A DNA stretch of 31,833 nucleotides from a virus. Both the position numbers and the translations under genes were made by a program. Shown here piece by piece: positions 15,654-31,341 of the stretch (within the stretch, counting starts at the first letter, position 1; each line of letters starts with the position of its first letter). The stretch is taken from positions 1 to 31,833 of the IMG/VR virus record IMGVR_UViG_3300035099_000108, one strand, 5' to 3'. Under the pieces are notes generated by a model. The model searched no databases. It was not told where the DNA came from and saw only the letters and a program-made list of their open reading frames with translations.

Positions 15654-16466
15654 CTAGGCGGCGTATTCCTCGACTCGTCCAACCTGATCGCCGACCGCCC
15701 GACTGGTGTCGGCCAGGATCGTCACCTGCAGCGGCAGGTCGACCTGGTCGTCGCGGTTCCAGGAGAGCGCCCCGGGGGCCACGATGGCGCAGCGGTAGAA
15801 GGTCACCGCCCATTTCTTCCCGCTGCCGGCCGGCAGGATCACCATCACCGGCTTCTCGGTGATGGCCGTGTCGCCGCCGAAAGTGAGGCGGCGCCGGCCG
15901 CTGCCCAGGTCCTCGATGGTGGCCGAGATGCCCCAGACATCTTTGAGGTTCTCGAGGCTGACTTCCGCCAGCGGCACGGCCAGCGAGAAGGTCTCGCCGA
16001 CCTTCACCGTCCGCACCGGCACCAGCGACTGGTCAGTCTCGATGTCCGAGGTCTCCACCTCATGCTCGAGGTCCAGGCCGCCATGCGAGTGCCCCATGTA
16101 GCGGCCCTCGACATAGATCGCCTCGGGCGCGCCCTTGATCACCGCATCGGGATCGGCCACCCCGGCCACATAGAAGAACAACGCCGAGGCCAGGTAGCCA
16201 TCCGGCGTAGTCTCGCCGTCATCGGCCACCCCGATATCGTACATGCCGCCGGAGGGAAACTCGGTGGCATGCAGCGTCAAGGTCAACTCCGTCGCCGAGA
16301 CATAGGCGACCCGCGTTGGGTCCACCACTGTCCAGGGTGTGGTGCCGTGCTTGCGCACCAGGATTTCGGTCAAGGTCGGCGTGTCAATGAATCCCGTGCC
16401 GAGCACGGTGATCGCATCAGCGGCCTTCCCATAGGAAGGCTTCACATCCGTGATCGTAGTAGCCAC
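15654..16466 (-). CDS. Major tail tube protein with N-terminal IPT/TIG Ig-like domain
   Basis: A 270-residue protein starting at GTG 16466 (AGGAG upstream). Residues 5-105 look like an IPT/TIG immunoglobulin-like fold: ITDVKPSYGKAADAITVLGT at the start and strands up to ASALFFYVAGV. Residues about 110-270 look like the tail tube domain (EVETSDIETDQSLVPVRTVK, LAVPLAEVSLENLKDVWG, KKWAVTFYRCAIVAPGAL). It lies directly before the chaperone pair, the standard place for the tube protein. Ig-like domains on tube subunits project from the tail surface and are thought to bind carbohydrate or cell surfaces. More often such a domain is at the C-terminus, so its N-terminal place here is a small oddity. 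Confidence 0.8.
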   Translation of the reverse strand: MATTITDVKPSYGKAADAITVLGTGFIDTPTLTEILVRKHGTTPWTVVDPTRVAYVSATELTLTLHATEFPSGGMYDIGVADDGETTPDGYLASALFFYVAGVADPDAVIKGAPEAIYVEGRYMGHSHGGLDLEHEVETSDIETDQSLVPVRTVKVGETFSLAVPLAEVSLENLKDVWGISATIEDLGSGRRRLTFGGDTAITEKPVMVILPAGSGKKWAVTFYRCAIVAPGALSWNRDDQVDLPLQVTILADTSRAVGDQVGRVEEYAA

Positions 16467-16490
16467 GTCCCTTTCTCCTCTTGCCCTCGC

Positions 16491-16892
16491 CTATAAGGAT
16501 GGGGTCCTCAGATCGAGAGCGATGTTGAATGAAGCGAGGTGCGCGGTCGCATTCCCCGCCTGCTCGGTTCCCACATAGGCCGGACTGTTGAGCGCCTCGA
16601 TGGTCAGCGCCCACAGGCCGCCGCCAAGATCGACATTCTGCTTGCCATGCAACTTGCTGTAGAGGCTATATGCCTTCCGCTCCGCGCCGTCTGGTGTGCC
16701 AGCCCGGGCGAAGAGCATGACGGTCGGATGCTCCCGCTGAGTGTAGCGATCTGGCGGGTAACCGCCCGTGCCATGTATGCTCACACAGGCGAGAGGGGAG
16801 GAAGGCCGGTGGCGCTTGAAGATATCAATGGCCACGGTTCCCTCGCCCTGCCCGTCCAAGTAGGCAGCAAGTTGGTCGATCAGCAGGCTCAT
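16491..16892 (-). CDS. Tail terminator / minor neck protein
   Basis: A 133-residue protein with the pattern of tail-completion proteins: an N-terminal helix (LLIDQLAAYLDGQG), a strand-turn-strand segment (ACVSIHGTGG, PTVMLFARAG), a helix (GAERKAYSLYSKLHGK) and a final sheet (HLASFNIALDLRT). It lies between the gp10-type neck protein and the tail tube, where the tail terminator is expected. It overlaps the upstream gene by 4 nt (ATGA). Assignment is by order and fold pattern rather than a diagnostic motif. Confidence 0.65.
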   Translation of the reverse strand: MSLLIDQLAAYLDGQGEGTVAIDIFKRHRPSSPLACVSIHGTGGYPPDRYTQREHPTVMLFARAGTPDGAERKAYSLYSKLHGKQNVDLGGGLWALTIEALNSPAYVGTEQAGNATAHLASFNIALDLRTPSL

Positions 16893-17392
16893 GCCAGCGC
16901 CCCTCGCAGATGATCCGCCAGGTTCTCCTGATAGCGGTCGGCCTGTTCCTTGAGGTTATCCTCGAGGTACTTGGCCTTGCCGCCCTTCGGATGGTTGAAG
17001 TCCAGGCGCTCGTGCTGCACGAGCGCATAGGGAGTGTTGAATCCCGCCTCCCCGACAACAGCGTCGCCCAGGCCGCCCTCGACGACTTTCCGCTCGACCA
17101 TCTCGGGGGCCTCAGGCTGGTCCGCCACTTCGCGGAAGCCCCGGCGGGCGACTGCCTGACCGTTCGCGTAGACGGCCGCATGCCCGCTGGCCCGCAGCGT
17201 GCCCTCATCCACGGGCGCGTCCCGCATGGCGCGGCCCAGCAAGTCCTCGGTGTTCTCGATCATGCCCTGGACCGCCGCGCCTTGGACGCGCTTCCATACC
17301 TCGCCGTCCCGGCCAAGCTGCCGGGTCATCTCAGCGATGCCGGTGAAGACGACTCCATACTTGCCGTAGGCCCGGCGGCCGATGGTGGGCAT
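16889..17392 (-). CDS. HK97 gp10-like neck / tail component
   Basis: A 167-residue protein. The segment RAMRDAPVDEGTLRASGHAA, followed by VGEAGFNTPYALVQHERLDF and KAKYLEDNLKEQ, is the signature of the HK97 gp10 family: a helix with a PVDTG-like turn, then Y-A-x-x-V/E-H with hydrophobic flanks. These proteins sit at the head-tail joint or act in tail joining. It is encoded between the head closure protein and the tail terminator candidate, consistent with the conserved order. The start is ATG 17392. Confidence 0.78.
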   Translation of the reverse strand: MPTIGRRAYGKYGVVFTGIAEMTRQLGRDGEVWKRVQGAAVQGMIENTEDLLGRAMRDAPVDEGTLRASGHAAVYANGQAVARRGFREVADQPEAPEMVERKVVEGGLGDAVVGEAGFNTPYALVQHERLDFNHPKGGKAKYLEDNLKEQADRYQENLADHLRGALA

Positions 17393-17393
17393 G

Positions 17394-17720
17394 CTAACTC
17401 GGGACTCCTTGCGACTGCAGATAGGCCAACTTCAGGATGGCCGCACCCCCCAGCCCCCGCGGGACCGAGAGGGCGATCACATCCACGTAGACTGTCTGGT
17501 CGAGAGAAAGCCGATCCCCGACCGCTATGGTTTCACCCGGCCCAAGGGTCACCGTCACATCCGAGGTGACCTGCTCTCCCTGGGCATTGCGAATCAGCCG
17601 GTTTTTCTGAAGCCACCGGCCCTTCATCTGCGTGGCCGCGCCGAAGGTGGGCTGCCCGTTCTCGTCCACGCCTGTCTTCGGCTTGCGCCAGATATCCTGA
17701 GCCAGCTTATCCTCGATCAT
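17394..17720 (-). CDS. Head closure (stopper) protein candidate
   Basis: 108 residues from ATG 17720, which overlaps the stop of the connector gene (ATGA) and has GGGGAG upstream; GTG 17741 is an in-frame alternative. The sequence (TSDVTVTLGPGETIAVGDRL, TVYVDVIALSVPRGLGG) describes a small beta barrel, as in SPP1 gp16 / HK97 head closure proteins. The place between the DnaT-like adaptor and the gp10-type protein agrees. Assignment relies mainly on gene order. Confidence 0.65.
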   Translation of the reverse strand: MIEDKLAQDIWRKPKTGVDENGQPTFGAATQMKGRWLQKNRLIRNAQGEQVTSDVTVTLGPGETIAVGDRLSLDQTVYVDVIALSVPRGLGGAAILKLAYLQSQGVPS

Positions 17721-18301
17721 CACCCGCTCCCCGGAGACCACTCGCCTTCCGGCAAGTCGGAGGCGGCGATGATGCCGCCCCGGTCGACGTAGGGCGCGAG
17801 CAATGCCCTGGCTTCGCTGCTCTCAAGTGCATGCTGGCCGGCCCCGGCCCCATAGGTCTCGCTGAGACCATCGACCGAGAAGCTCGTCACACCCGCCGCC
17901 TGCAGCGCGCGCCGTTTCTCCTGCTCGGCTCCCCGGGCCAGCAACGCCAGCGCCTCTTCGCACTGCGCGTCTTTCGCGGCCTGGGGGATGATCCAGGCGC
18001 CGGCGCTGTCCCGATCTTTCCGGCGCGGGAATGACAGCGCCTGAGTCTGCAGATACGGGGCCAGCGGATCATAGGGAAGTCCCTCCGCTGGCGCTCCGGG
18101 GTAGCCGTACGGCCGGCGGTGCACCCGGATGCGGCAGGCCTCGATGCGGCGGCAGGCCATGAGCAGCGCCTTCTCCCGATCGGCCTCAGAGGCCGAAGTC
18201 CAGGCGCTCGCATGGAGGCGTTGGCCGAAGTAAGCGCCGGCCGCCTCCAGCGTCAGGTAGCTGTTGCTGGCCGCCCCGCCGATGGTGGCGTCGAGGGCCA
18301 C
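17720..18301 (-). CDS. Head-tail connector (adaptor), DnaT-like type
   Basis: A 193-residue helical protein. SNSYLTLEAAGAYFGQRLHA followed by EADREKALLMACRRIEA is the hallmark of phage head-tail adaptors annotated as DnaT-like or gp6-type: an SYLTLEEADAYF-like start, then a helix that packs against the portal. GLPYDPLAPYLQTQALSFPR and the PQAAKDAQCEEALALLARG helix complete the usual pattern. It would bind the bottom of the portal ring. It starts 3 nt after the upstream stop. Confidence 0.8.
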   Translation of the reverse strand: MALDATIGGAASNSYLTLEAAGAYFGQRLHASAWTSASEADREKALLMACRRIEACRIRVHRRPYGYPGAPAEGLPYDPLAPYLQTQALSFPRRKDRDSAGAWIIPQAAKDAQCEEALALLARGAEQEKRRALQAAGVTSFSVDGLSETYGAGAGQHALESSEARALLAPYVDRGGIIAASDLPEGEWSPGSG

Positions 18302-18304
18302 GGC

Positions 18305-18697
18305 CTAGCTCTCCTCCTCGACATCCGCCGCGTGATACCAGAGGATGTGAATGGCGTGGCCGGGGATGAACGGCTTGGGCGTCGGCGGCACCACCAGGAT
18401 GTGCTCGCCATACCGCACCAGCAGATCTTTGCCGGTGAGGCTGCGAAGGCTGATGGCCATCCCTGTCTGCGTGATCCGCTCCAACTCCTGGGTCCGGTTC
18501 GGCTCCGGCAGCGCCATTGCTCGGCCAAGCAGCCCGAGCTTTCGCGGCTCAACGGATGCCGTAACCACGGCCATTGGAACCGGCGCGGCTTCTGGGGCCG
18601 GTGCGACCGGCGTCGCCTCGCCCCCTGGAACCTCAGTCTCAGATGCAGCCGCCGCAGTCAGTTCCGCGTCTTCCTGCGGCATGTCCTCTCTGCGCAT
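18305..18697 (-). CDS. Hypothetical protein between capsid and connector genes
   Basis: A 130-residue protein with a low-complexity Ala/Pro/Glu N-terminal half (about 1-50, TPVAPAPEAAPVP) and a compact C-terminal half (about 60-130) containing MAISLRSLTGKDLLVRYGE, ILVVPPTPKPFIPGHAIHIL. The ribosome site AAGGAG precedes ATG 18697. It may correspond to the small proteins that sit beside the head-tail adaptor in many phages, but no family was recognised. A strong hairpin separates it from the fibre/decoration gene upstream. Confidence 0.65.
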   Translation of the reverse strand: MRREDMPQEDAELTAAAASETEVPGGEATPVAPAPEAAPVPMAVVTASVEPRKLGLLGRAMALPEPNRTQELERITQTGMAISLRSLTGKDLLVRYGEHILVVPPTPKPFIPGHAIHILWYHAADVEEES

Positions 18698-18715
18698 CGG
18701 GATCTCCTTATCTGA

Positions 18716-18762
18716 CGGGGGCCGGCCCTGCCAAGAGGCGGTGTGGGGGTGGCCGGCCCCCG
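18716..18762 (-). terminator. Perfect 12-bp GC hairpin after the capsid genes
   Basis: Arms CGGGGGCCGGCC (18716-18727) and GGCCGGCCCCCG (18751-18762) are perfect complements around a 23-nt loop, in the 105-nt gap between the fibre/decoration gene and the next gene. There is no T-run downstream on the minus strand, so a classic terminator is uncertain; mRNA protection or partial attenuation below the capsid genes is equally possible. Apart from this hairpin and the GGAG site at its downstream edge, the gap holds nothing. Confidence 0.5.
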
Positions 18763-18802
18763 CGCATTCGCTTGCCTATCCCGTCCTCATGCCGTCGCCC
18801 CA

Positions 18803-19537
18803 CTAGGCCAGGGCATAGGTCAGGATCACATCAATGTGCGTGCAACCCGAGAGGTCGTCTCCGGTCTTCCCGATGGTGATGACATCATCCGCGTCGAGCG
18901 CCACGAATGATGCTCCATCGGCGAGGATGGCGGCATTCGCTGCCCCTGCGCGGAGCAGGGCCGACTGAGTGAGCCCGGCCACGGCCGCCGCCAGCAGCTT
19001 GGTCGCGCCATCGAGGATGTCCACCGTCGTTGCGCCAGCGGCAGCGCCGCCGATGGCAATCAGGGCGACATCCACGAGGCGAACAGCGCGGCCGCTCGGC
19101 GGGGTGACCAGGGTATGGCCGGCATTGACCTCGGCCGCGGTCACCCGATGGCGAATGGTGAGCGCGATATCGGCGGCCAGTTGAGCCGCACCGATACCAC
19201 CCGCCTTTACCTGGAGGGTATCGGCAGCGATCTCGATGGTCGAACCGTCGACCTTCGCCTCGAGAGAGCCATCCGCGTTCTGGCCCAGGCCGGCGCCGGC
19301 CACATCCGCGTTCACCTTCGCCTTGGTAACCGCGTCGTCGGCAATCCGGCCTGTGACCACACCCAGGTTCTTCAGCTCGATGGTGTTGCCAGCCCCGATG
19401 TGGAGTCCCACCTCGTCGACATGGCCGGCCACAACCCCATTCTGCAAGTCCTGGATGATCGTGCCCAGCGCCACTTCGGTGAGGTTGGGACACGTGAGGG
19501 TATTCAGCTTCGCCTTTGTGGCCTCGTCAATCGGCAT
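18803..19537 (-). CDS. Capsid fibre / decoration protein candidate
   Basis: A 244-residue protein. The N-terminal two thirds carry fibre-type repeats (GVVTGRIADDAVTKAKVNAD, LGQNADGSLEAKVDGSTIEI, LQVKAGGIGAAQLAADIALT) like those of phage tail and head fibres, and the C-terminal part (RAVRLVDVALIAIGGAAAGA to DVILTYALA) looks like a small beta sandwich. It is encoded directly after the major capsid protein, the usual place for decoration or head-fibre proteins, and far from the tail-tip genes. Head placement is inferred from position; a displaced tail fibre remains possible. Confidence 0.65.
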   Translation of the reverse strand: MPIDEATKAKLNTLTCPNLTEVALGTIIQDLQNGVVAGHVDEVGLHIGAGNTIELKNLGVVTGRIADDAVTKAKVNADVAGAGLGQNADGSLEAKVDGSTIEIAADTLQVKAGGIGAAQLAADIALTIRHRVTAAEVNAGHTLVTPPSGRAVRLVDVALIAIGGAAAGATTVDILDGATKLLAAAVAGLTQSALLRAGAANAAILADGASFVALDADDVITIGKTGDDLSGCTHIDVILTYALA

Positions 19538-19580
19538 TGGTTGCCTCTCCTGTCTCTAAGGTGATTGGTCAGCCAGTCGA

Positions 19581-20570
19581 CTAGGCCAGGTCCTGCAGCG
19601 ACCCCATCCGATAGGGGTTGCGGCAGACCAGCTGCGAGTAGTGGATCACCCAGAAATCGGCAGCGTCCTTGGTCGCGCCAAGAACCAGGATGCCAAAACC
19701 AGGCACGCCCGGCACTGCCACGACATTGCGCAGGCCGGCGATCTCGGCATTCTCGCTCGTCACCGGCAACATGTGGTATTCGAGGAGATTCTCGTCGACG
19801 AAGTCCATGCGGCCGGTGGGATAGCCGGGCACCAGGATCAGGGGAATGCCCTCGAAGTCCAGCGCCTGGTAGCCACCCGTCAGGGTGCGCGGGTCCTGCT
19901 GCCGGCGCTCTCCCCGGAGCAGATCGCCGTACTTGTACCACTGGGCCGACCCAGTGTAGATGGCAGTCACGCGGCCGCCGCGCGTCTCGAGGATGGTGCT
20001 CTTGACGTCGCGCATCAGCGCCTCGGTGAGGTTGCGCGGGGTGCCGCCATTGGCGTTGACGTAGGCCTTCCACCAGGTGTACGTGGAGCGGTCGAGGCCG
20101 GCATACGTGCCGGTGTCCGCGATGGCGGCCCGCAGCCCGGTGATGTCCTTGTTCGAGTTGCCGGTGCCATCGCTCATCAGCTCGGTGTTGATGTTAGAGC
20201 GCATGTCCAGCAGCCCATTGTCCAGTTCGAAGCGGAGCGGATCGACAACCATGCCGCCGCCTGCGCCCACCGCAAAGGCCTGGCCGCTGACCGAGATCTC
20301 CACCCGGTTGCTCTTCCAGGCCAGGAAGGCCTCTTTGGCCGCCTGGTTGCCCGCGCCCCCGCCTGCATCTCCCTCGCCATAGGAGCTGGCGGAGGTGTTG
20401 CCCGCATATCGCACAGGCCAGCGGATACCGTTGCCGCGGCCCGTCTTCACATTGCCCCGTTCGCCCAGGCGGACGAGCATGAACGTCTCCTTGTGGAGCG
20501 CGTCCACCCAGGGGCCTGCATAGAGCTTGACGATTAGCTCTGCCAGTGTCGTCAGAGTCGCACCAGCCAT
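19581..20570 (-). CDS. Major capsid protein (HK97 fold)
   Basis: A 329-residue protein directly after the scaffold gene. Features of the HK97-like fold by sequence pattern: an N-terminal helix with ALHKETFMLVRLGERG, a loop segment GIRWPVRYAGNTSASSYGEG (E-loop region), a long spine-helix region (FELDNGLLDMRSNINTELM), a P-domain core (VTAIYTGSAQWYKYGDLL) and an A-domain end (GIPLILVPGYPTGRMDFVDE, FWVIHYSQLVCRNPYRMG). The length matches capsid proteins made with a separate scaffold rather than an N-terminal delta domain. A GGAG lies upstream of ATG 20570. Confidence 0.85.
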   Translation of the reverse strand: MAGATLTTLAELIVKLYAGPWVDALHKETFMLVRLGERGNVKTGRGNGIRWPVRYAGNTSASSYGEGDAGGGAGNQAAKEAFLAWKSNRVEISVSGQAFAVGAGGGMVVDPLRFELDNGLLDMRSNINTELMSDGTGNSNKDITGLRAAIADTGTYAGLDRSTYTWWKAYVNANGGTPRNLTEALMRDVKSTILETRGGRVTAIYTGSAQWYKYGDLLRGERRQQDPRTLTGGYQALDFEGIPLILVPGYPTGRMDFVDENLLEYHMLPVTSENAEIAGLRNVVAVPGVPGFGILVLGATKDAADFWVIHYSQLVCRNPYRMGSLQDLA

Positions 20571-20607
20571 GATCTTCTAGTCTCCTTGTCGCCCGGAGGC
20601 CAGGCGG

Positions 20608-21318
20608 CTAGAGGGTGCCGGTTTTCAGCGCCTGCTCCAGCCGGTCGCCGGCCTCGGCGAGTGTCTTCGGGGCGGGCGGCTCCTGCTGATTCGGATTGCT
20701 CACCGACCCCACGGTCTGCTGCTTCGGATTCGGCTGGGTGGAGACCAGATAGGGCTTCTGCTCGACCAGCGCCTTGACCAGATCGTCGACTCCCGTAACC
20801 CGGCCTTCATCATCCATCGCCACCGATGCATAGCCCGGCAGCGATTGCGCGATGACGAATGCCGCGTCGGTGTCGATGACTCCGGCCTTGGTCGCGGCAA
20901 CCAGGAACTGCGAGCGGATGACGTCGCCCCTGCGGGCCGTCGCCTCCTTCTCGCGGGCCACGCGCTCCTTCTCGTAGAGGTCCTTGTACTTCTCCTGCTC
21001 CTCCAGAGCTTTGCGCTCGGTCTCTTCCTGGGCGGCGGCGATCTCACTCAGCCTCCGCTCTGCCGTCCTCGCCCGGGCAGTCAGTTGGCCGATCCGCTCC
21101 TGGACGGCGCCGGTGAAGATCGAGTCTTCGATCTCCAGCGTGCCATCCTTGAGCAGTCGGCCGACCTGTTCCTGAGTAAGCTTGAGGGTAACGCCCTTCG
21201 CCTGTGTCGCCGGCGGTTGCGATCCCTTCCCGTCGCCCTGGCCACCCTGGCCGGAGCCGTCTCCGGCTCCTTCCTGGCCCTGCCCGTCGCCCGTCTTCTC
21301 CTGGTCGGTGTCTGCCAT
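20608..21318 (-). CDS. Capsid scaffolding protein
   Basis: A 236-residue acidic, highly charged protein. Residues 1-40 are low-complexity Gly/Gln/Asp, residues about 75-130 form a coiled coil (ARARTAERRLSEIAAAQEET, EQEKYKDLYEKERVAREKE), and the C-terminal third is Pro/Gln/Asn-rich. Scaffolding proteins of this type (SPP1 gp11-like, DUF4355-like) guide procapsid assembly and are expelled or degraded. It lies immediately before the major capsid gene and has a GAGGAG ribosome site 6 nt from ATG 21318. Confidence 0.83.
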   Translation of the reverse strand: MADTDQEKTGDGQGQEGAGDGSGQGGQGDGKGSQPPATQAKGVTLKLTQEQVGRLLKDGTLEIEDSIFTGAVQERIGQLTARARTAERRLSEIAAAQEETERKALEEQEKYKDLYEKERVAREKEATARRGDVIRSQFLVAATKAGVIDTDAAFVIAQSLPGYASVAMDDEGRVTGVDDLVKALVEQKPYLVSTQPNPKQQTVGSVSNPNQQEPPAPKTLAEAGDRLEQALKTGTL

Positions 21319-21390
21319 CTCAGTCTCCTCGGTGTTGACGCCCCGCGGCGAAAGTGCCCACCATATCGCTGGCGGACGAGCGAGTTACGA

Positions 21391-21408
21391 GAGGCCCTGT
21401 CGGGCCTC
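21391..21408 (-). other. Short hairpin directly after the paralogue gene
   Basis: GAGGCCC and GGGCCTC pair around a TGTC loop, beginning two bases after the stop of the gene ending at 21410. There is no T-run. Its 5' arm GACGAGGC shares eight bases with the conserved leader motif seen at 22419 and 26683, which may be chance. The remainder of the 91-nt gap before the scaffold gene holds only the GAGGAG ribosome site. Confidence 0.35.
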
Positions 21409-21409
21409 G

Positions 21410-21784
21410 TCATTCCCCTGCGTACATCGCCACCTTCTCCATGTCTTTCATGTGCCGGCCGAGGTGCTGGAGGGCCTTCACCCGATCGCTGCGGCGCAGA
21501 TGAGTCTCTTCATAGGGCCGGCCCTCGCCCCATGCTCCCTCGGTCGCGCGCTCGGCGCTCTCGCGCATGCGGGAAGCGCAGCCATAGACTGCATCCCGAT
21601 TGACCACCATCATCCCGTCTCGCACCTCGTGATGCGGGCCGGCGCGAAGGGAGCCATCCTTGGAGACATAGCAGTAGGCCTCGTCAAACATCTCGCGGGA
21701 GGCCCCGCCGAGGGCCTGCTCCAGCTCCACCCGGGCCTCGTCATCCCAGGCCAAGTCGGAAATCCGCTGGTTGTTGATGCGCAT
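21410..21784 (-). CDS. Hypothetical head-region protein, paralogue of the next gene upstream
   Basis: A 124-residue protein. The core DEAYCYVSKDGSLRAGPHHE, then MMVVNRDAVYGC and HLGRHMKDMEKVAMY lines up with the neighbour at 21794-22153 (EAYLYVPN, GPHHEL, LVVNRRAVHA, LRKHYRGMEEE), so the pair arose by duplication. A similar PHHE...V.R.AV...L..H.. module occurs beside prohead protease or scaffold genes in many phages, though the protease part itself is not seen here. The start is ATG 21784 with AGGAG upstream. Function unknown; the position suggests capsid assembly. Confidence 0.72.
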   Translation of the reverse strand: MRINNQRISDLAWDDEARVELEQALGGASREMFDEAYCYVSKDGSLRAGPHHEVRDGMMVVNRDAVYGCASRMRESAERATEGAWGEGRPYEETHLRRSDRVKALQHLGRHMKDMEKVAMYAGE

Positions 21785-21793
21785 GCGGGTCTC

Positions 21794-22153
21794 CTAGTCG
21801 CCCGACTCTTCGGGCATCTCCTCTTCCATGCCCCGGTAATGCTTGCGGAGATGGGCCAGCCCGGCGACGATAGCGGCGCGGGGCCAGTGAGGGCCGCCCG
21901 CATGTCGAGCGCCGTGGAGTTCGCCTAGCCTGGCATGCACCGCGCGGCGGTTGACCACCAGGGTATTGCCCTTCAACTCGTGATGAGGGCCGCCCCATTC
22001 ACTCGAGTTCTCGAGGTTGGGGACATAGAGATAGGCCTCCCTGATCGCGACAGCATCCCCCGCATCGGAGAGCTTGCGGGCCAATGCCGTTCGCTTCTCT
22101 GGAGGATATGGATCGTCGGAGATGGTGGCATTGTCGATCTTGATATCAGCCAT
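21794..22153 (-). CDS. Hypothetical head-region protein, first of a paralogous pair
   Basis: A 119-residue protein with the shared core EAYLYVPNLENSSEWGGPHH, NTLVVNRRAVHARLGE and AGLAHLRKHYRGMEEE. The N-terminal part (MADIKIDNATISDDPYPPEK) is specific to this copy. GGAGG precedes ATG 22153. The duplicate lies 9 nt downstream in the same operon. No catalytic motif is certain: the two adjacent His residues are conserved in both copies but could be structural. Confidence 0.72.
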   Translation of the reverse strand: MADIKIDNATISDDPYPPEKRTALARKLSDAGDAVAIREAYLYVPNLENSSEWGGPHHELKGNTLVVNRRAVHARLGELHGARHAGGPHWPRAAIVAGLAHLRKHYRGMEEEMPEESGD

Positions 22154-22159
22154 CAGCCT

Positions 22160-22342
22160 TCACCTCCCTGGACGGCGGCCCGCCTTGAATCGCCGACTCG
22201 CTTTGCCGGCGCGACCTGCCTTCCGACCGCGATATCCACCGGCGAATGCGGCCCTGCCCTGTCGCTCGGCCTGCTCCCTGGTGGGATAGACCTTGCCGTG
22301 CCGGCCCCACCGGAATCCGCCTTTCACTGCCCGCACAGGCAT
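22160..22342 (-). CDS. Small, very basic phage protein
   Basis: 60 residues from ATG 22342 with GGAGG upstream. The product begins MPVRAVKGGFRWGRHGKVYP and continues TREQAERQGRAAFAGGY, a widespread small phage protein type whose role is not known to me, followed by an Arg/Lys/Gly-rich tail that should bind nucleic acid. It is the first gene after the leader and terminator at 22368-22494, so its expression depends on read-through of that terminator. A longer frame from 22393 would include the terminator stem and is rejected. Confidence 0.75.
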   Translation of the reverse strand: MPVRAVKGGFRWGRHGKVYPTREQAERQGRAAFAGGYRGRKAGRAGKASRRFKAGRRPGR

Positions 22343-22367
22343 CGCGATCCAGCCTCCAGTCCCAAGC

Positions 22368-22423
22368 AAAAAGGCGAGCTTCTCATGGCCCACGCGGTTG
22401 CATCGGCTTTGAGAAGCCCGCCT
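22368..22423 (-). terminator. Intrinsic terminator in the leader before the 60-aa gene
   Basis: On the minus strand AGGCGGGCTTCTCA (22423-22410) pairs with TGAGAAGCTCGCCT (22385-22372), 14 bp with one G-U pair, around a 24-nt loop, and is followed directly by a run of T (22372-22368). This is a textbook Rho-independent terminator. Because a promoter lies only about 90 nt upstream and no gene lies between, it works as a leader terminator or attenuator rather than as an operon end. Confidence 0.82.
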
Positions 22424-22438
22424 CGTCGTGTCAACGCC
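22419..22438 (-). repeat. Conserved 20-nt leader motif, copy 2
   Basis: On the minus strand this is GGCGTTGACACGACGAGGCG, identical over all 20 bases to the copy at 26683-26702, with weaker similarity further upstream (AACCCAATA here, AACCAAATA there). The last bases run into the 5' arm of the terminator stem. It lies between the promoter -10 box and the terminator, so it would be in the RNA. Confidence 0.85.
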
Positions 22439-22466
22439 AGCGGGAAACTATTGGGTTTCGGCCACC

Positions 22467-22494
22467 ATCATAGCACGGCGCGGTGGCCTGTCAA
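22467..22494 (-). promoter_or_regulatory. Strong sigma70-type promoter before the second leader
   Basis: On the minus strand TTGACA (22494-22489) is followed after 16 bases by TATGAT (22472-22467), with an extended -10 TGC directly before it. The expected start is near 22460. It lies just after the small membrane protein gene (stop at 22504) and drives a leader containing the 20-nt motif and a terminator. The remainder of the 161-nt gap holds nothing else. Confidence 0.78.
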
Positions 22495-22503
22495 CAGAGA
22501 GAC

Positions 22504-22740
22504 TCACACAGCAGGGGAAATCGGCCGATCGGCCCGCCCCTCTACCCCATGCCCGCTTCGAAGCGCCCCGCTCAAGCCAACGTGGCGCGGCGTTTTCGGC
22601 CCCGGATGCGCTAACCTGCCTGGAATGCCGGTTCGGCAGCCTTCGCCGGTGTAGCCGCGGAGCCGAAGCAAGGCCCATAGGCCCACCAGGAGCTTCATTC
22701 CGGCGACGGCAACCAGCAACATGGCGAGCATGCCGATCAC
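22504..22740 (-). CDS. Small membrane protein
   Basis: A 78-residue protein starting at GTG 22740, overlapping the stop of the upstream gene (GTGA). Residues 1-27 are a continuous hydrophobic stretch ([20 protein letters not shown], then LWALLRL), one membrane helix, followed by a basic, Gly/Pro-rich soluble tail. It closes the head sub-operon before the promoter at 22467. Small one-span proteins here have no assigned role; the tight coupling supports it being real. Confidence 0.6.
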
Positions 22741-22997
22741 TCCGACATGTCGAACCTGGGGAGGACGGAGGAGTCAGGCCGACGCACCCGGCGCAGATAG
22801 CTCGGCAACTGAACTCCTGGCTGGAGTAGGAACTGCTTCCCTTGATCTCCCTGGTAGGGACGCCTATGGTCGTGGACCATGCGGAAGATCTCATCAGGTA
22901 TGCCCGCGGGAAAGGCCTCGCACGTCGGGCCGGCGGGGCCAACCTCGCCCCGGCGAAAGCGCGCGCAGTAGAGACACAGTGGAGCTGGGCCGCTCAT
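22737..22997 (-). CDS. Cys-rich small phage head-region protein
   Basis: 86 residues from ATG 22997, two bases after the stop of the MuF gene. The sequence [20 protein letters not shown] then [20 protein letters not shown] and YQGDQGKQF is a pattern I have seen in small proteins of phage head modules (C..C...C.AFP.GIP..I....H..P..GDQG..F). The three Cys and one His could hold a metal. The ORF extends to 23048 but those codons overlap MuF and lack a ribosome site. Function unknown. Confidence 0.75.
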
Positions 22998-22999
22998 GA

Positions 23000-24868
23000 T
23001 CAGATGTTCACCCCCATACGCTTGGCGGCCGCCTCGAGACGGCTCCATGCCCGCCGCCTGGCATTGCCGGCCGTAGGCAGTTCATCCAGCCACCGATACT
23101 GTGGCCGGGCGTATCTTCGCGCATTGGGGCCGGTGATGGCAAGCAGCTCTCGCAGCGAGTCAGCATACTCATTGCTCCAGCCGGCCGGCGCATGATGGAG
23201 CGCGGCGAAGGCCTCGGCGAATCCCTCGCTGGGCCTGGTCGAGCCATAGATGCTCACCAACTGGCGGGCAGTCGTGTCAGACCAGGCGCCCCACCACATG
23301 TTGAAAGTGTCCTTTGTCAGCCCCCACCCGCTGGGCGCCACCACCTCGGCCCAGGCTTCGCTCGCATCGACCCGCTGGTACCAGTAGTGCACATGGTGGC
23401 CGAACTCGTGGGTGATGATGGATTCGACGGTGTCGCACCCGGCCGGATGGAAGCCGGCGGCCACGCTCGACTTGAGCGCCTCCTCGAGGCGTTCGGGCGA
23501 GGCGAACCATCCGGGGTTCAGGGCGAGCACGCGCTCATCGGCAGCATAGGGGCCGCGCCCCGGCACATACCAGGCATGGGCGAACTCCCCGTGGAAGCCG
23601 GTGGCGGCCTGGCGCAGCGCCTCCGGCATTTTCTGCTTCTCGACATAGGTGCCGAAGTAGGTGATCCCGCGGGCCACCGCGGGATATTCATGGGCCATCT
23701 CATTCCATTGGCTCACCACGCGGGTCAGATAACTTGAATGCACTCCCCGGAAATCCACCGCCACCTCGGGATAGTGTTCATGCATCCACCCCTCGGCTTG
23801 CGCCGCGTTGGCGAAGGGCGCGTCAGGCAGCCTCGGCTTTTCCCCCGGCGCCGGTTGCGCTATGCCTGCCGGCCGATTCCGCTGAGCCACTCGACGCGCT
23901 ACCGCTCCCCTGCCGGCCGCCCGCGCTCGGCCCGGGAACTCCCTGCGGAAGCGCCGCTGCAGTTCGGCTGGAGACCTGTTGAGGACGTCAGGCGAGATGA
24001 TCCCCGCCTTCTTCTCCTGGTCGGTGGCCAAACGCTCCACGAATGGTGTCAGGACATGCACGCAGCGCGGATGGAATGGCGGGCCGCCCCCAATGGAGCT
24101 GATCGATGGGTAGACGGGGTGGGGAACATCGCCGATGCTGACCACCGCGTTCTCGTAGTAGACGCAGAAGTCGGCCGCATTGTGGGCCGAGACCTGAGCC
24201 AGCTCGATCCCATGCTCCCGTAGGCGATTGATAGTCCCCTTGGTCATCGCCTCGCGAGTCGTCGTACGGGCCACCATCTCCGAGTAGCGGTCCAGGTCCC
24301 ACTTCCGGCCGAGCTTGTCGGTGAAGTAGGGCCGGCCCTCGGCCAGCAGCCTCTCCCTGATTTGCCTGCTCACATCGATGCGCGTCTTCCCCTCGGCGAT
24401 CCCCTTCGCCACCTCCTCTACGCCCACGCGGCGGAAGACGTCATTGACCCGCCGGCCGATCTGGGCCACCGCGAAGTCGGTGGTGCGCAGCATCTCCTCC
24501 ATCACCGCCTGGGCCGCCTCCCGATGCACCTGCGAGAAGACCTCGCGCTGGCGCCGGCCCAGGTTCACCCCGGCCTTGCGGATGTTGCGCGCCCCCTCGT
24601 CTGCGAACTCCAGGCCGATGTGATAGGCGCGAGGGATGTTGGTCTCGATCCAGGCGGCCGCCTCGTCGTGGAGGGTGGCCAGCATCGTCTGATACTGACG
24701 GAGATGGGCGATAGCGCGCTGGCGGGCGAAGAGGGTCGCGGTGGCATCCCCGAGCACGTCGAGCATATCGGCGGCGCTGTTCCGATAGAGTGCCGCCAGG
24801 GAGTTGATCTCGCCCTGGAAGGCGCGCCGGAACTCCTCGATTCGCCGCCGGCCGATCGGCGGGGGCAT
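23000..24868 (-). CDS. MuF-type head protein fused to a C-terminal zinc metallopeptidase
   Basis: 622 residues from ATG 24868 (GGGG just upstream, 7 nt after the previous stop). The N-terminal half is the phage Mu gpF-like minor head domain: [37 protein letters not shown], then [13 protein letters not shown] and [14 protein letters not shown] (about 265-276). After a Pro/Arg/Ala-rich linker, the C-terminal half is a zincin: [13 protein letters not shown] with His487-Glu488-His491, and [17 protein letters not shown] with Glu552 as the likely third ligand, resembling lethal-factor-type peptidases found on MuF proteins. MuF proteins are packaged at the portal and can be ejected with DNA, so the peptidase may act in the virion, in maturation, or in the cell. 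Confidence 0.85.
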
Positions 24869-24875
24869 CGCGCCC

Positions 24876-25187
24876 CTACCGTCCCTGCGTGGCTGCGCCT
24901 GTGGCGGCGGGTGGGGCGGTGGCCGCTCGGGAGGGGGAACGGCTGCGGCCCGCCCGCACTTGGCCCACACGGCCAAACCTGGGGGCCTTTCTGAGCCACA
25001 CTAGGAGACGCAGCCAGAGCCGCCGCCAGCCGGGGAGGCTGCGCCACCAGGCGGTGGCCGCCAGAGAGGCCTCCTGCTCGGCCATCATGCGCCAGACATC
25101 CTCTCGCCGATGGCCCTGCAGGCCCAGGCGGCGCCGGCCCTGCTTGTTCATGCGCCCGTAGACCCGGCTGCGGAAGACGCGGCTCAT
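24876..25187 (-). CDS. Small basic protein between portal and MuF genes
   Basis: 103 residues from ATG 25187, overlapping the portal stop (ATGA), with a G-rich ribosome site upstream. It fills the space between two well-defined genes exactly, which supports it. The product is strongly basic (MSRVFRSRVYGRMNKQGRRR), with a Trp/Leu-rich amphipathic or membrane-associated stretch (AATAWWRSLPGWRRLWLRLL) and an Arg/Ser/Ala-rich disordered end. Family not recognised. The longer frame upstream to 25439 lies within the portal gene and is rejected. Confidence 0.65.
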   Translation of the reverse strand: MSRVFRSRVYGRMNKQGRRRLGLQGHRREDVWRMMAEQEASLAATAWWRSLPGWRRLWLRLLVWLRKAPRFGRVGQVRAGRSRSPSRAATAPPAATGAATQGR

Positions 25188-26620
25188 GCCTGATCGCCCC
25201 CCTCGCCGCCCTGCTGCTCCTCGCCCTGGCCGACCGGCTTGCCGCGGCCGGCTCCCGCCCCGCCGGTGAGCGCCACTGCCTGCCCGGTCTCCTCGGCGAT
25301 GCGCTCCATTTCGGCCTCGACTGCATCGGGGCCATCCAGCCGCCGCACCGAGGACTCCATCGAGGTATTGCCGGCCGTCAATCGCTGCGACTCGATCTCC
25401 ACCATCTCGACCATGTCTTCGGGCAGGCCATCCGCCCACTGGATGGTCGGCTCGGCCGGCTCATATCTGCCGGAGCCGTGAGTCACATCGAGTATCTGGG
25501 CGGTGAGCAGCGCCGACTTCAGCGCCGCGTCGTAGTAGAGCCGCTTGCGGTTGATCTTGGCCAGAGTGCGAATCAGCCGAAGTTTCAGCGCCCGGCCGCT
25601 CTCGACCGTTCCGTACTTCGTGAGGCCGAACGCGCTGGGCGAGGTCTCCGAGCAGATGAACAGCAGCTCCTCCAGCCGCTCGACCTGCTGGTAGGCGGCG
25701 GCGAGTTGACCCTCCCAAGTCATGTAGCTCGGCGGGCTGGACCCAGGATCGATCTGAATGGCCTCCATGTGTTGGAACGCGACCTTGCCCTCCTCGTCGA
25801 TGAACCCCGGGGGCAAGATGATCTTCGGGGCCACATGCTTATCCAGCACCACATCGATCTGCGAGTAGCGGTTGTTGAGCGCCTCGAAGAGAGACTCCAG
25901 TCCTTCGTAGTCGCTGATTCCCCAGAAGCGCGACCCATAGCGGAAGTTCGGCACATGGAAGATCGGGATGTGATCGAGGCCGGTCTCCTCCTCCTCGGGC
26001 AGGCCCCGATAGGCTTCGAATGTCTCCAGCGGCACCTGCTCGGTGGCCCGACCGCCGGTGAATCGCAGCAGACGGTGGCGGATCACGCCCGGCTCATGCT
26101 CCTCGAGGCGCAGATAGCGCATCCCCGGATTCGTCGGGTCAGTCTTCACCCAGGCCAGGGTCACCCGCAGCACCCGGCGGACGTCATCCTCGTCGATCTC
26201 AGGGAAGTAGATGCCGGCCGGCACCTCCTCGATGATCGCTTCTGGTTGCTCCGATTGGGGAGTGCGCTTCCCCCACCGCACCTTGAGCACCGCGTCGCCC
26301 CGGAATGAGTTGGCCAGCGCCGACTCATAGCACATCAGCTCGAGGCTGTTCTGAATGACGATCTGGGCCAGCGCCTCGGCTGCAGGTTCATCCTCCTCGG
26401 CGACCAGGAAGTCGGGGTATTCGCCGAAGAGCAAGTCGGCCGACAGGCGGGAGATCAGGCCAGCGAAGTTGGCGATGATGTAGCGGCGCAGCTGATACTT
26501 GCCCGGCTGGATGTTCCACAGCTCTTTGTGCCGGCCCAGGAAGAGCTTCTCGAACCGGGCATATCCCAGGACGCGTTCCTGGTGCGCGGTCGGAGGATAG
26601 ACTGTGAGGTCGAGCGCCAT
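25184..26620 (-). CDS. Portal protein (SPP1 gp6-like)
   Basis: 478 residues from ATG 26620, with GGAG in place. It forms the dodecameric portal ring through which DNA is packaged and leaves. Supporting features are the gene order (after the large terminase, before MuF), the N-terminal membrane-like stem residues (LRRYIIANFAGLISRLSADL), the core (HIPIFHVPNFRYGSRFWGIS followed by DYEGLESLFEALNNRYSQID), the clip/stem segment (LEELLFICSETSPSAFGLTK then YGTVESGRALKLR) and an acidic low-complexity C-terminus (EEQQGGEGGDQA). This is the SPP1-type/DUF1073-like portal pattern. A longer frame to 26698 would run through the terminator and is rejected. A private promoter and leader lie at 26645-26753. 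Confidence 0.9.
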   Translation of the reverse strand: MALDLTVYPPTAHQERVLGYARFEKLFLGRHKELWNIQPGKYQLRRYIIANFAGLISRLSADLLFGEYPDFLVAEEDEPAAEALAQIVIQNSLELMCYESALANSFRGDAVLKVRWGKRTPQSEQPEAIIEEVPAGIYFPEIDEDDVRRVLRVTLAWVKTDPTNPGMRYLRLEEHEPGVIRHRLLRFTGGRATEQVPLETFEAYRGLPEEEETGLDHIPIFHVPNFRYGSRFWGISDYEGLESLFEALNNRYSQIDVVLDKHVAPKIILPPGFIDEEGKVAFQHMEAIQIDPGSSPPSYMTWEGQLAAAYQQVERLEELLFICSETSPSAFGLTKYGTVESGRALKLRLIRTLAKINRKRLYYDAALKSALLTAQILDVTHGSGRYEPAEPTIQWADGLPEDMVEMVEIESQRLTAGNTSMESSVRRLDGPDAVEAEMERIAEETGQAVALTGGAGAGRGKPVGQGEEQQGGEGGDQA

Positions 26621-26644
26621 TGATCGTCTCCATGCCCGCCATGC

Positions 26645-26688
26645 AAAAGAGGCGCCCCGGCCGCTTGCGCGGTTTCTGGGGTCGCCTC
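26645..26688 (-). terminator. Intrinsic terminator in the leader before the portal gene
   Basis: On the minus strand GAGGCGACCCC (26688-26678) pairs with GGGGCGCCTC (26658-26649), leaving one bulged A. Inside it a second stem, CCGC/GCGG, closes a GCAA tetraloop (GNRA type). TTTT (26648-26645) follows at once. It stands 24 nt before the portal start and about 30 nt into the RNA from the promoter at 26725-26753, so it acts as a leader attenuator or end of a small RNA. Confidence 0.8.
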
Positions 26689-26702
26689 GTCGTGTCAACG
26701 CC
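26683..26702 (-). repeat. Conserved 20-nt leader motif, copy 1
   Basis: On the minus strand this is GGCGTTGACACGACGAGGCG, the same 20 bases as at 22419-22438. The following hairpin differs completely in sequence between the two loci apart from the first stem bases, so the identity is not explained by a simple recent duplication of the whole region. It lies downstream of the predicted transcription start. Confidence 0.85.
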
Positions 26703-26708
26703 GGCGCG

Positions 26709-26930
26709 TTATTTGGTTGGCTGTATTCTAGGAAGGGGTGAGGCTCCCGTCAATGGCGGCTGCGATCGGCCGAGTAGGTATTTCGGCTCCCATGTGAGGA
26801 CATGCGCTTCCCGAGGTTGCCCCGCTGACATGGCGATCTCTATCACCAGACGACCGTGCCCGCCAACGGCTGCGCGCGACACGGCCTCGCAGAGATCGGC
26901 CCATGACTGATATGCGGGGTCGTTGGCCAC
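26709..26930 (-). CDS. Hypothetical 73-aa protein after the large terminase
   Basis: The frame starts with GTG immediately after the terminase TAG (TAGGTG), with GAGGGG 6 nt ahead. The N-terminal 50 residues look like a real small fold (YQSWADLCEAVSRAAVGG, then GRLVIEIAMSAGQPREAHVL), while the end is Pro-rich. The last codons contain the promoter for the portal leader, so the stop overlaps a regulatory region. Function unknown. Confidence 0.55.
   Translation of the reverse strand: MANDPAYQSWADLCEAVSRAAVGGHGRLVIEIAMSAGQPREAHVLTWEPKYLLGRSQPPLTGASPLPRIQPTK
26725..26753 (-). promoter_or_regulatory. Sigma70-type promoter before the portal leader
   Basis: On the minus strand TTGACG (26753-26748) is followed after exactly 17 bases by TAGAAT (26730-26725). 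Both boxes have 5 of 6 consensus bases at ideal spacing. The expected start is near 26718, so the RNA would carry the 20-nt motif and then the terminator at 26645-26688 before reaching the portal gene. Confidence 0.75.
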
Positions 26931-28562
26931 CTACAACCCCTCGGGGCGCTGGCTGGTCCAGCGCGCCACCGCCCGCTTGCGCGCCTGCCAGGCGATGCCG
27001 GCCGCCATCACCCGATCATCATAGGCCCCCTCTTCGGCCTCCTGGCCGGTCGGCTTGGCCACGAAGGTCATGCACTCGCCGACCAGGCCCTCAGAGTGGA
27101 TCACCATACTGCCCTCGGAGATCGCCGCCGCCAGATCATCCACCAGGATCGGCTTGGTGGCCTGGTCAGTCGGCCAGCCGAGGATCGGCTGCGTGCCTGT
27201 CCGCGCGTCATACCGCATGTGGTAGTAGAGCCGCGGGTAACGACAGGAGTTCCGCAGCGTGTTGAGAGTCGAGTGCCCGTGGTTATTGCGCTCCACCGCC
27301 AGCAGCGCCCGGTTGTAGCGCCGGCCCAGCGCGTCGAGCAGGTGCCCGAATCGGTCGGGCGGCACGCGGCCGTGCAATTCCGCCACCTGCTCGCCCGAGC
27401 GGTGCTCGATCACCACCGCGCAGGAGGCATCCCCATCCGGCAGGCCCTCTCCGATATCGGCCCCGATAACATAGACGGCCTGCGGCTGCGGCCGCTTCCA
27501 CACCAGCAGATGAGCGGGCGCCAGGGAAAGCGACTGGTCGCCCGAGGTACGCAGGGAGGTGATCGACTCGGGCTTCGGCTCCCCGGCGATGCGAGCGGCC
27601 ATCCGGCTCAGCGCCTCCAGATCGAAGACGGCGCGCGTGCTCGCCAGGAAGCAAGACATGTCATCCTCGGGATACTGCTCCTTGAAGCGGTCCCGCAGAT
27701 CATGCTGCATCAGCCGCCGCCATTGGATTTGGCCGAGGGTCACATGATAGCGCCGCACCAAGGCCTGTTCATCCGGGGCGAGTGGGGCCATGTCGGCCGG
27801 CACGGCCGCCGAGTACTCCGGGTGCTCGAACCAGGTGTAGAAGTGCCCGGTGAATCGACTGCCTGGGTTCCTGGTCTCCAGCCACATGCGGTGGAACTCG
27901 TTGCCGATCCCGTTGGCCGTCGATTCCAGCACGATCCGCCCGTCGGCCGGCACCGCCCCGAGCAAGGCGATGAGCGCCTCCTTCGGGTTGGTCCACCGCG
28001 AGACCTCGCTGCAGTGCAGGTTGTGAATCGTGAGGCCGTGGCCGAAGCGGCCGCTCTCGGCCGTGCCGCAGTAGAGCCGCGACCCATTTGGCCAGATGAA
28101 CTCCCGCTTGTTCTCGCGGGATGGCTCGCCCACGCGGAGCTTCTCGATGGCAGGAAGCATCTGCCAGTAGAGCTTCCCGATCTCGAAGATCTTCTGGGCC
28201 GAGTCAAGATCGTGGGCGACGAGCACCGAGACGGTGTTCTCTCGGCGGATGCAGTCGCAGAAGAAGAGCGCCTCGATGAAGGTGGTGAACCCCTCCTGCC
28301 GGGCCTTCAGGATGATATCGCGGGCGGTCCGATACTGGTCATAGTCCCGCTGGACCTGGTTGAGCACCAGGCGCACCACTCGCCGATGCTTGTCCCTGAT
28401 CCACAGGTTGCTCTCGATCCAGGCCCGGTCACTCAGCTCCCCCTGCTGCGCCTGCCTCTGCGCGTTCAGCAGCGCCTCCAACTCCTGCCGGTCTGGCCCG
28501 CTCAAGGACTGCGACAATTGCACGCAGTCGCTCAAGCTCGGAAGCTCTAGCATACTGCTCAT
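26931..28562 (-). CDS. Terminase large subunit
   Basis: A 543-residue DNA-packaging motor. ATPase domain: a degenerate Walker A, KARQEGFTT (86-94), of the R-x-G-x-S/T type; Walker B, IHNLHCSEVSRW (about 179-190), with Ser185-Glu186 in place of the usual Asp-Glu, as in some Mu-like terminases; and the coupling motif VLESTANG (211-218). RNase-H-like nuclease domain: IGADIGEGLPDGD (366-378; Asp369 and acidic partners), LAVERNN (421-427; Glu424) and YDDRVMA (514-520; Asp515/516). All essential elements are present. The start is ATG 28562 with GGAG upstream; it overlaps the small subunit gene by 134 nt, which is long but required because the N-terminus lies in the overlap. Confidence 0.95.
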   Translation of the reverse strand: MSSMLELPSLSDCVQLSQSLSGPDRQELEALLNAQRQAQQGELSDRAWIESNLWIRDKHRRVVRLVLNQVQRDYDQYRTARDIILKARQEGFTTFIEALFFCDCIRRENTVSVLVAHDLDSAQKIFEIGKLYWQMLPAIEKLRVGEPSRENKREFIWPNGSRLYCGTAESGRFGHGLTIHNLHCSEVSRWTNPKEALIALLGAVPADGRIVLESTANGIGNEFHRMWLETRNPGSRFTGHFYTWFEHPEYSAAVPADMAPLAPDEQALVRRYHVTLGQIQWRRLMQHDLRDRFKEQYPEDDMSCFLASTRAVFDLEALSRMAARIAGEPKPESITSLRTSGDQSLSLAPAHLLVWKRPQPQAVYVIGADIGEGLPDGDASCAVVIEHRSGEQVAELHGRVPPDRFGHLLDALGRRYNRALLAVERNNHGHSTLNTLRNSCRYPRLYYHMRYDARTGTQPILGWPTDQATKPILVDDLAAAISEGSMVIHSEGLVGECMTFVAKPTGQEAEEGAYDDRVMAAGIAWQARKRAVARWTSQRPEGL

Positions 28563-28947
28563 CGGTCATCTCCACGGTCGTCGTGATCTTCTGTGGTGCA
28601 TCGAGCCCGAGCAGTTTGGCCCGGCGATCCATTAGGCGCAGGATGGCCCGGAAGGCGAGCACATCGCCGCTGATCGCTTTGACCCACCAGTGCATCTGCA
28701 ATGAGTCGAGGCGCTGCGCTTCCAGCTCTCGCACGAGTTCGGCCGGCCCCTTCGCCGCTCGCCGCAGCGCCGAGTCGACCGCCTTGTGCGCGCCGCCCCG
28801 GTTGGCATAGCCGAGCGCCTCGGCGATCTGGTCATAGCTCGATCCCGCCAGGCGCATCTCCAGCGCCCGCTGGCGTTTCAGCGCCTGTGTAAGTCGCCGA
28901 TCCGCGCTGACCTGGGCGCTCTGGTTTGTCCCTTCGGGCGGCGACAT
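28429..28947 (-). CDS. Terminase small subunit / packaging HTH protein
   Basis: A 172-residue protein directly before and overlapping the large terminase. An N-terminal helix-turn-helix (RLAGSSYDQIAEALGYANRG, about 32-51) would read the packaging site. The middle, KAVDSALRRAAKG and FRAILRLMDRRAKLLGLDAP, is a helical segment often found in phage small terminases. The C-terminus is Ala/Glu/Gly-rich and overlaps the large subunit. No strong ribosome site is seen (AGGCTGG only). The HTH and position make this role likely, though generic HTH proteins also occur here. Confidence 0.75.
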   Translation of the reverse strand: MSPPEGTNQSAQVSADRRLTQALKRQRALEMRLAGSSYDQIAEALGYANRGGAHKAVDSALRRAAKGPAELVRELEAQRLDSLQMHWWVKAISGDVLAFRAILRLMDRRAKLLGLDAPQKITTTVEMTDEQYARASELERLRAIVAVLERARPAGVGGAAERAEAGAAGGAE

Positions 28948-28970
28948 GTTTCCAGCCTTGGTTTCCTGTT

Positions 28971-28988
28971 CTTGGCGAGATCACCAAG
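28971..28988. promoter_or_regulatory. Imperfect 18-bp palindrome before the small terminase gene
   Basis: CTTGGCGAGATCACCAAG matches its reverse complement at 14 of 18 positions (arms CTTGG.GA / TC.CCAAG). It lies 24 nt upstream of the small terminase start, downstream of the promoter at 29166. It could be an operator or an RNA hairpin. No second copy was noticed nearby, so the call is tentative. Confidence 0.35.
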
Positions 28989-29135
28989 GCAGAGCGATCC
29001 GTTTCCCGCCCGGCTTCCTGCCTGGTTTGCCCCTTGATTCACTCGGTGCCCGGGTCACAGGTCCAGCGGCTCTCAGGCGGTAGCTGGAGTTCCTCGCCGT
29101 CTGTCCGTACGTGTTCGCGCTGGAGTGTCACCATT

Positions 29136-29162
29136 GCGGCCGAGCGCGAACCGCTCTGCCGC
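29136..29162 (-). other. Hairpin at the 5' end of the terminase transcript
   Basis: GCGGC-GAGCG pairs with CGCTC-GCCGC (two 5-bp stems with one mismatch between them) around a 5-nt loop. It begins within a few bases of the transcription start predicted from the -10 box at 29166-29171 and has no T-run, so a 5' stabilising hairpin is more likely than a terminator. The gap 28948-29171 otherwise holds the palindrome at 28971 and a doubtful 31-codon frame. Confidence 0.45.
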
Positions 29163-29165
29163 GGC

Positions 29166-29174
29166 ATTATATCA
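29166..29174 (-). promoter_or_regulatory. Extended -10 promoter for the packaging/head operon
   Basis: On the minus strand the bases read TGATATAAT: a perfect TATAAT (29171-29166) with the extended -10 TG one base upstream. The TGA is also the stop codon of the zinc-ribbon gene. At the -35 distance only a weak GAGCCA is present, as is usual for extended -10 promoters. Transcription would start near 29159 and run into the terminase genes. Confidence 0.7.
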
Positions 29175-29441
29175 CGGCTCCCCACGGTTGGCTCTGCAGC
29201 CGGGGCATAGGGGGAGATCGTCATCACCGTCCAGGCTGGCCGCTTGCCCGACCAGCAAGGCCGCCCCGCAGTCAGTGCAGAGCGTCTCGGCCGGCTCCCA
29301 CATCCGGTCCTCTTCATTCCACACCCATCGGCGGCACTCTAGCGATAGGCTGGTGCCAGTCCCGCATTTCGGGCAGCGCGTGATCCGCCCATTCGCCTGG
29401 GTGATGATGATCTGGCCGCAGGAACATGCAAGATGAACCAT
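29172..29441 (-). CDS. Double zinc-ribbon protein
   Basis: 89 residues from ATG 29441, overlapping the stop of the ParB-like gene (ATGA), with GGGAGGGG upstream. Four knuckles are visible: CSCGQ and CPKCG near the N-terminus, CTDCG and CPGCR near the C-terminus, consistent with two zinc ribbons joined by a charged linker (ECRRWVWNEEDRMWEPAE). Such proteins may bind nucleic acid or a polymerase. Its stop codon is embedded in the -10 promoter of the next operon. Specific function unknown. Confidence 0.75.
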   Translation of the reverse strand: MVHLACSCGQIIITQANGRITRCPKCGTGTSLSLECRRWVWNEEDRMWEPAETLCTDCGAALLVGQAASLDGDDDLPLCPGCRANRGEP

Positions 29442-30447: not shown

Positions 30448-30449
30448 GG

Positions 30450-31339: not shown

Positions 31340-31341
31340 GA

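Follow-up and report, generated by a model that had tools for sequence, protein, structure and literature searches.

What does a promoter followed closely by a strong terminator do inside the head operon of a phage, and why is the same 20-nt core found in two such places? The window (the whole stretch analysed, 31,833 nt of IMG/VR virus record IMGVR_UViG_3300035099_000108) is a phage fragment with a minus-strand gene order of TerS-like, TerL, 73-aa ORF, portal, minor head, 77-aa gene, scaffold and major head protein (Table 1). The gene in the TerS position (28429-28947, minus strand) matches phrog_645, which is labelled RNase E and is probably a mislabelled family. The module at 22368-22494 sits between the minor head and 77-aa genes, and a portal copy lies between TerL and portal. 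A preliminary description of the second module, which named a sigma70 promoter, a terminator and a 20-nt core matching the portal copy exactly, was confirmed in all three parts: TTGACA (22494-22489) is followed after 16 nt by an extended -10, TGcTATGAT (TATGAT at 22472-22467), AAACCCAATAG lies between the -10 and the core (22458-22448), and the strong terminator, with a 14-bp stem from 22423, ends in TTTTT (22372-22368). It was also correct that, apart from the core, the two copies share no more than a short stretch resembling AACC.AATA and the first bases of the stem. An 18-mer of the core occurs exactly twice in the 31.8-kb record, and neither the core nor its complement was matched elsewhere in it within 3 mismatches; shuffled sequence never gave two matches, even when 3 mismatches were allowed. 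Scored as sigma70 matches across window 16000-31833, the promoters of the two modules rank highest (11/12 and 10/12).

Table 1. Features of the two modules and the neighbouring genes in the window
Feature	Position	Strand	Details
TerL	26931-28562	-	
73-aa ORF	26709-26930	-	directly after TerL
Portal-copy module, whole	26753-26645	-	
Sigma70 promoter, portal copy	26725..26753	-	TTGACG-17-TAGAAT, within 3' end of 73-aa ORF
5' box, portal copy	26709..26721	-	GCCAACCAAATAA
Putative antiterminator hairpin, portal copy	26683..26706	-	CGCC-GG-CGUUGACACGACG-A-GGCG
Predicted terminator, portal copy	26645..26688	-	
Portal protein	25184..26620	-	first gene downstream of portal-copy module
Minor head gene	23000-24976	-	
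Sigma70 promoter, second module	22467..22494	-	TTGACA-16-TATGAT, extended TG
5' box, second module	22448..22460	-	CGAAACCCAATAG; family consensus GACAACYGAATAG
20-nt core, second module	22438-22419	-	GGCGTTGACACGACGAGGCG
Putative antiterminator hairpin, second module	22417..22444	-	CCCGCU-GG-CGUUGACACGACG-A-GGCGGG, contains the 20-nt core
Predicted intrinsic terminator, second module	22368..22424	-	
77-aa ORF	22160..22393	-	phrog_31267; first gene after second module, before scaffold and major head protein

A profile search with the portal protein gave 51 loci and about 30 related phages. Apart from L050, every locus that includes sequence upstream of portal and whose portal is about 56% identical or more showed promoter, box, hairpin and terminator there, and loci with a portal identity of 40% or less gave no covariance-model match. 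Beyond the window, the exact contigs were L003, L004 and one relative, L005. The stretches around the modules in L003 (15.6 kb) and L004 (11.9 kb), both from IMG/VR 3300032118, are identical to the window, and these contigs are apparently pieces of the same phage. L005, whose TerL and portal are 57-58% identical to those of the window, has a module at each of the corresponding positions, with two changes in the core of its second copy, one of them in the loop. The covariance model detected 57 copies, 11 of them outside the model-building set, in 44 loci, every copy oriented with the head genes, and no matches with E between 0.006 and 1. It had been proposed to check whether every copy sits between a promoter and a terminator. 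In the whole records of relatives, every one of the 57 matches had a terminator in register, and a sigma70 match of 9/12 or better lay upstream of 44 of the 48 unique copies; copies without promoter or terminator were not seen. Most whole records, up to 84 kb, had exactly two strong copies, one upstream of portal and the other between the minor head and the scaffold/major head genes, and the earlier idea of a structural operon split into units thus applies to most of the phages. One 26-kb record (G012/L056) had four modules; of the additional copies, one is immediately upstream of the major head gene and the others precede a later gene at 9175 and a gene at 23656. A 51.8-kb record (G008) had one copy. 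Within the four-module phage, the inner hairpins differ by compensatory changes.

Several variants and doubtful matches were also noted. A further G+C-rich hairpin is present between the -10 and the 5' box at L046:8850-8885, L049:12260-12312 and L035:6930-6973. Upstream of a TerS-like gene (L030:3110-3175), a CAACTGAATAG box precedes a GGGAGG-CCGUGUUGACGCACGA-CCUCCC hairpin that has no terminator and was not matched by the covariance model; this is possibly a degenerate or terminator-free relative of the module. Other matches of the wider exact pattern AATA-N-GTTGACACGACG were attributed to chance, and the pattern ACAACYGAATA-N-GAGGCGGG was found in 2 records of the family itself and in 3 stretches elsewhere, none of which is a convincing new member. 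No similar module DNA was matched in isolated phages, and a genome collection scanned with the TerL and portal profiles gave no matches. A simple repeat or mobile element was rejected because the flanks are unrelated and the copies are fixed at operon joints.

Comparison among these phages indicated that the core is most of an RNA hairpin and not a linear motif. The predicted hairpin comprises an outer stem, a 2x1 internal loop, a 4-bp inner stem and a small loop, and cores vary between phages by paired changes (CGUU-GACAC-GACG, CAUC-GCGCA-GAUG, CUCG-ACAUC-CGAG and CCGG-AUAA-CCGG). Given 35 aligned copies, RNAalifold predicted the hairpin unprompted, with compensation at 6 of 7 pairs; the second inner pair was A-U in 12 copies, G-C in 12, U-A in 7 and C-G in 3. 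The full structure was paired in 91.4% of cells (77.3 +/- 1.2 in shuffles), slid versions of it reached at most 51.5%, and covariation was 0.486, compared with 0.210 in shuffled alignments (0/500). The pair count is inflated, because most of this alignment (A4) was collected by a scanner that demanded pairing. It was therefore redone on 22 sites upstream of portal, chosen by position and not by structure, which provides a less biased check. Here, 83.0% of cells were paired (75.4% in shuffles) and covariation was 0.359 (0.212; 0/500), a count lowered by the aligner misplacing the CCGG types. Selection on the core, as suggested in the preliminary description, was thus borne out across the phage family; beyond that reading, the hairpin is kept by compensatory changes and the core sequence is phage-specific, not universal.

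The hairpin is also tied to the terminator behind it, as in all 57 copies the 3' strand of its outer stem doubles as the 5' base of the terminator. In the second module, the 5' arm of the terminator begins with the same GGCGGG that closes the antiterminator, and at least 4 common nucleotides were found in 47 of 48 unique copies (in the 48th, L046:11832, the script parsed the wrong hairpin). Since one strand is common to both, the two structures exclude each other. On average, the terminator fold was 6.7 kcal/mol more stable than a combination of the antiterminator with what remains of the terminator. When leaders of growing length were folded for the second module, the antiterminator was the best or near-best structure until the terminator was complete, at which point the terminator won; in the folding model, this order is what a switch dependent on a factor would show. 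The modules combine two features of an antiterminator/terminator attenuator: RNA hairpins that have a strand in common and cannot form together, the later being an intrinsic terminator, and an antiterminator pairing conserved in evolution. Judged from the sequences, in which anatomy, mutual exclusion, covariation, conservation across the phage family and a specificity common to both copies can be read, each module is probably a switchable transcription terminator right behind its own promoter (probability about 0.7). For the situation in vivo, we infer that by default the nascent RNA would fold as the terminator and transcription would end about 75-100 nt from its start. The alternative hairpin, formed by the 20-nt core and a short upstream strand, would take the GGCG(GG) strand from the terminator base, and while it holds, the terminator could not close beside the U-run and RNA polymerase would continue into the head genes. 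As the alternative hairpin is the weaker fold, it would depend on being bound by a trans-acting factor, for which an RNA-binding antiterminator encoded by the phage and reading the inner stem-loop is the most likely candidate. One such factor may serve all modules of a phage, in which case the portal/minor head and scaffold/capsid units would open together.

If a factor of this kind is involved, the hairpins of one phage should resemble each other. In 16 phages, the similarity of the inner hairpin between the two copies was 0.85 within a phage and 0.26 between phages (0/100,000 permutations), whereas no within-phage excess was seen for the upstream 40 nt (0.09 vs 0.075), and the distal terminator showed next to none. 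The type of hairpin was unrelated to portal distance (Mantel r = 0.005): L033, L034/L035 and L059 have portals that are 94-97% identical and yet different hairpins, and the window and L005 share an identical hairpin at 57% portal identity. The hairpins at both sites change together, which agrees with the prediction for a cognate trans-acting partner. These data point to a phage-specific trans-acting factor that would stabilise the antiterminator and open late transcription unit by unit. On the other hand, phage-specific hairpins could instead mirror different hosts.

By analogy, the working principle appears to be that of the ANTAR and BglG/SacY attenuators. In the ANTAR leaders of the EutV system (eut operon of Enterococcus faecalis), several intrinsic terminators of a single operon have a short common sequence that overlaps their 5' part, terminator formation is excluded by a small hairpin and all sites are served by one factor (PMC3369931). 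However, an ANTAR site consists of a tandem pair of hairpins whose hexaloops are conserved at their first and fourth positions (A1, G4), whereas the module has a promoter of its own, a linear 5' box and one hairpin, with 4-6-nt loops of changing sequence (such as GACAC, GCGCA, AUAA and GAGUA). For the BglG/SacY/LicT proteins, the end of the RAT hairpin overlaps the foot of a rho-independent terminator and the two structures are mutually exclusive, the hairpin being stabilised by protein (PMC9981650). The modules share the overlap and the mutual exclusion, and their hairpin would likewise be stabilised by a protein, but they differ from RAT in the hairpin itself, in having several recognition types within one phage family and in their association with phage head genes. 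Membership in either class fails on the proteins tested for, which were not detected, and, for ANTAR, also on the RNA form: no ANTAR domain (PF03861) was above cut-off, with one sub-threshold partial match, and the CAT RNA-binding domain (CAT_RBD, PF03123) was found in 0 of 17 records, which may be incomplete and could rely on a host protein. A NusG-family protein of the LoaP/RfaH type (PF02357) was likewise found in 0 of 17 records, Rfam gave no covariance-model match at gathering score, and our literature search, which covered papers outside subscription, returned no account of such elements before phage head genes.

One component of the module goes beyond a plain hairpin switch. The 5' box (about 13 informative positions) is conserved across the family at 5-53 nt from the -10; because this spacing varies among phages, the box should act in RNA or as a separate site. 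A plain hairpin switch does not need it, which suggests a further component, perhaps a nut-like one. A similar, AACTGCATA-like stretch occurs in the rRNA spacers of several bacteria, a resemblance that was not above chance in an 8-record test. In phage lambda, N acts through nut sites (boxA-boxB) that combine a linear box with a small phage-specific hairpin, and the specificity differs between related phages. The module might be a loading site of this sort, with the 5' box as boxA analogue, the hairpin as boxB analogue and the terminator overlap secondary, at which a phage protein and host Nus factors would be recruited and make RNA polymerase processively terminator-resistant. We regard this as a plausible although not the favoured explanation. 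It would account for the order of a linear box and a small phage-specific hairpin and, if the box works as RNA, for the variable distance to the promoter, but it requires neither an outer stem nor its precise overlap with the base of the terminator, both of which are kept everywhere, and it has no need for a module at each unit, as a processive complex would persist. The modules also differ from lambda nut in that the hairpin is wired into the terminator and located in the head operon and no canonical boxA was seen.

Other explanations appeared less convincing. It is unlikely that the hairpin alone modifies RNA polymerase as a cis-acting RNA without a phage protein. The put RNAs of HK022 lie downstream of early promoters, are present as two structured copies per phage acting on termination and need no dedicated trans-acting protein (PMC9378689), and no antiterminator domain was above cut-off here; but put is about 70 nt long with two long stem-loops (PMC9378689), whereas the module has a single short conserved hairpin of phage-specific sequence, whose inner loop and stem vary freely among close phages yet match within a phage, which contact with RNA polymerase alone does not predict. 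Late control of the Q type, in which a phage protein binds the promoter or early transcribed DNA and travels with RNA polymerase through the terminator, would explain a promoter with a terminator close behind, the layout of lambdoid late promoters at which GafZ and Q act (PMC11150451, PMC6606751). This is very unlikely, as the conserved elements here lie at variable distances from the promoter and show covariation as paired RNA bases; in addition, the Q-family proteins PF06530 and PF03589 were not found above cut-off. Finally, a promoter, a short conserved core and a terminator without an ORF between them resemble an sRNA gene, and the product might be a short terminated RNA that pairs with a target or acts as a sponge, with the core as seed. 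The lack of a further core or complement match in the record, the pairing of the core in a conserved hairpin with compensatory changes and the constant position of the copies before head genes in sense orientation make this the least probable of the readings considered.

If the modules are switchable terminators, a cognate factor might be found among the phage proteins that change with the hairpin. All contigs covering the TerL-portal stretch and a module carry one of two small ORFs after TerL (relatives include L005:2467-2706 and L057:3455-3736). The first family is present in all except the phages with CCGG/CUCG A-rich tetraloops, and the second exactly in those phages (L033, L036, L043, L062 and L057); no homology between the two protein families was detectable. 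L059 and L034 are 95% identical at the TerL C-terminus and 96% at the portal N-terminus, and their small proteins are 43% identical and their hairpins different, whereas in L034/L035/L037/L038 the hairpin is identical in type and the small proteins are 91-97% alike. In L035, an insertion parts the small gene from the module, yet hairpin and protein match those of L034/L037/L038; the insert, about 1.6 kb at L035:1150-2760 and missing in close relatives, looks like cargo. Mantel analysis gave r = 0.25 (p about 0.01) for small protein vs hairpin, compared with 0.17 (p 0.06) for portal and 0.12 (p 0.12) for TerL. The 73-aa protein is predicted to fold as one helix and a beta-hairpin (alpha-beta-beta, pLDDT 83), for which a search of PDB folds returned no credible match. 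The 70-100-aa product after TerL is therefore a candidate cognate factor, but only as a rather doubtful lead, because it is linked to module 1, several other genes likewise differ between phages with unlike hairpins and the protein is not notably basic. More broadly, it is conceivable, if somewhat unlikely, that the modules represent a new class of phage antitermination, in which a small phage protein, possibly this product, binds the phage-specific stem-loop in every late-unit terminator and protein and hairpins are exchanged together like lock and key.

The small gene and module 1 also overlap. The 73-aa ORF ends with a stop codon inside the portal-copy 5' box; in many phages the small gene likewise has its stop codon inside the 5' box, and its LT codons overlap the -35 TTGAC. 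Leader-peptide attenuation of the portal copies was held unlikely, because transcripts from the module promoter start too late to carry the small ORF and the stop codon is absent in about a fifth of copies.

Taken as switches, the modules would form an apparently undescribed RNA-switch family that, in a large group of uncultured phages, gates transcription of the head genes one unit at a time. That the hairpin changes in step at two sites separated by several kilobases, while the portal hardly changes, amounts to a natural specificity-swap experiment, which makes it feasible to look for a new antiterminator. Orthogonal switches of such kind would be useful as gene-control parts. If the lock-and-key exchange is true, it would give each phage private control of its head genes.
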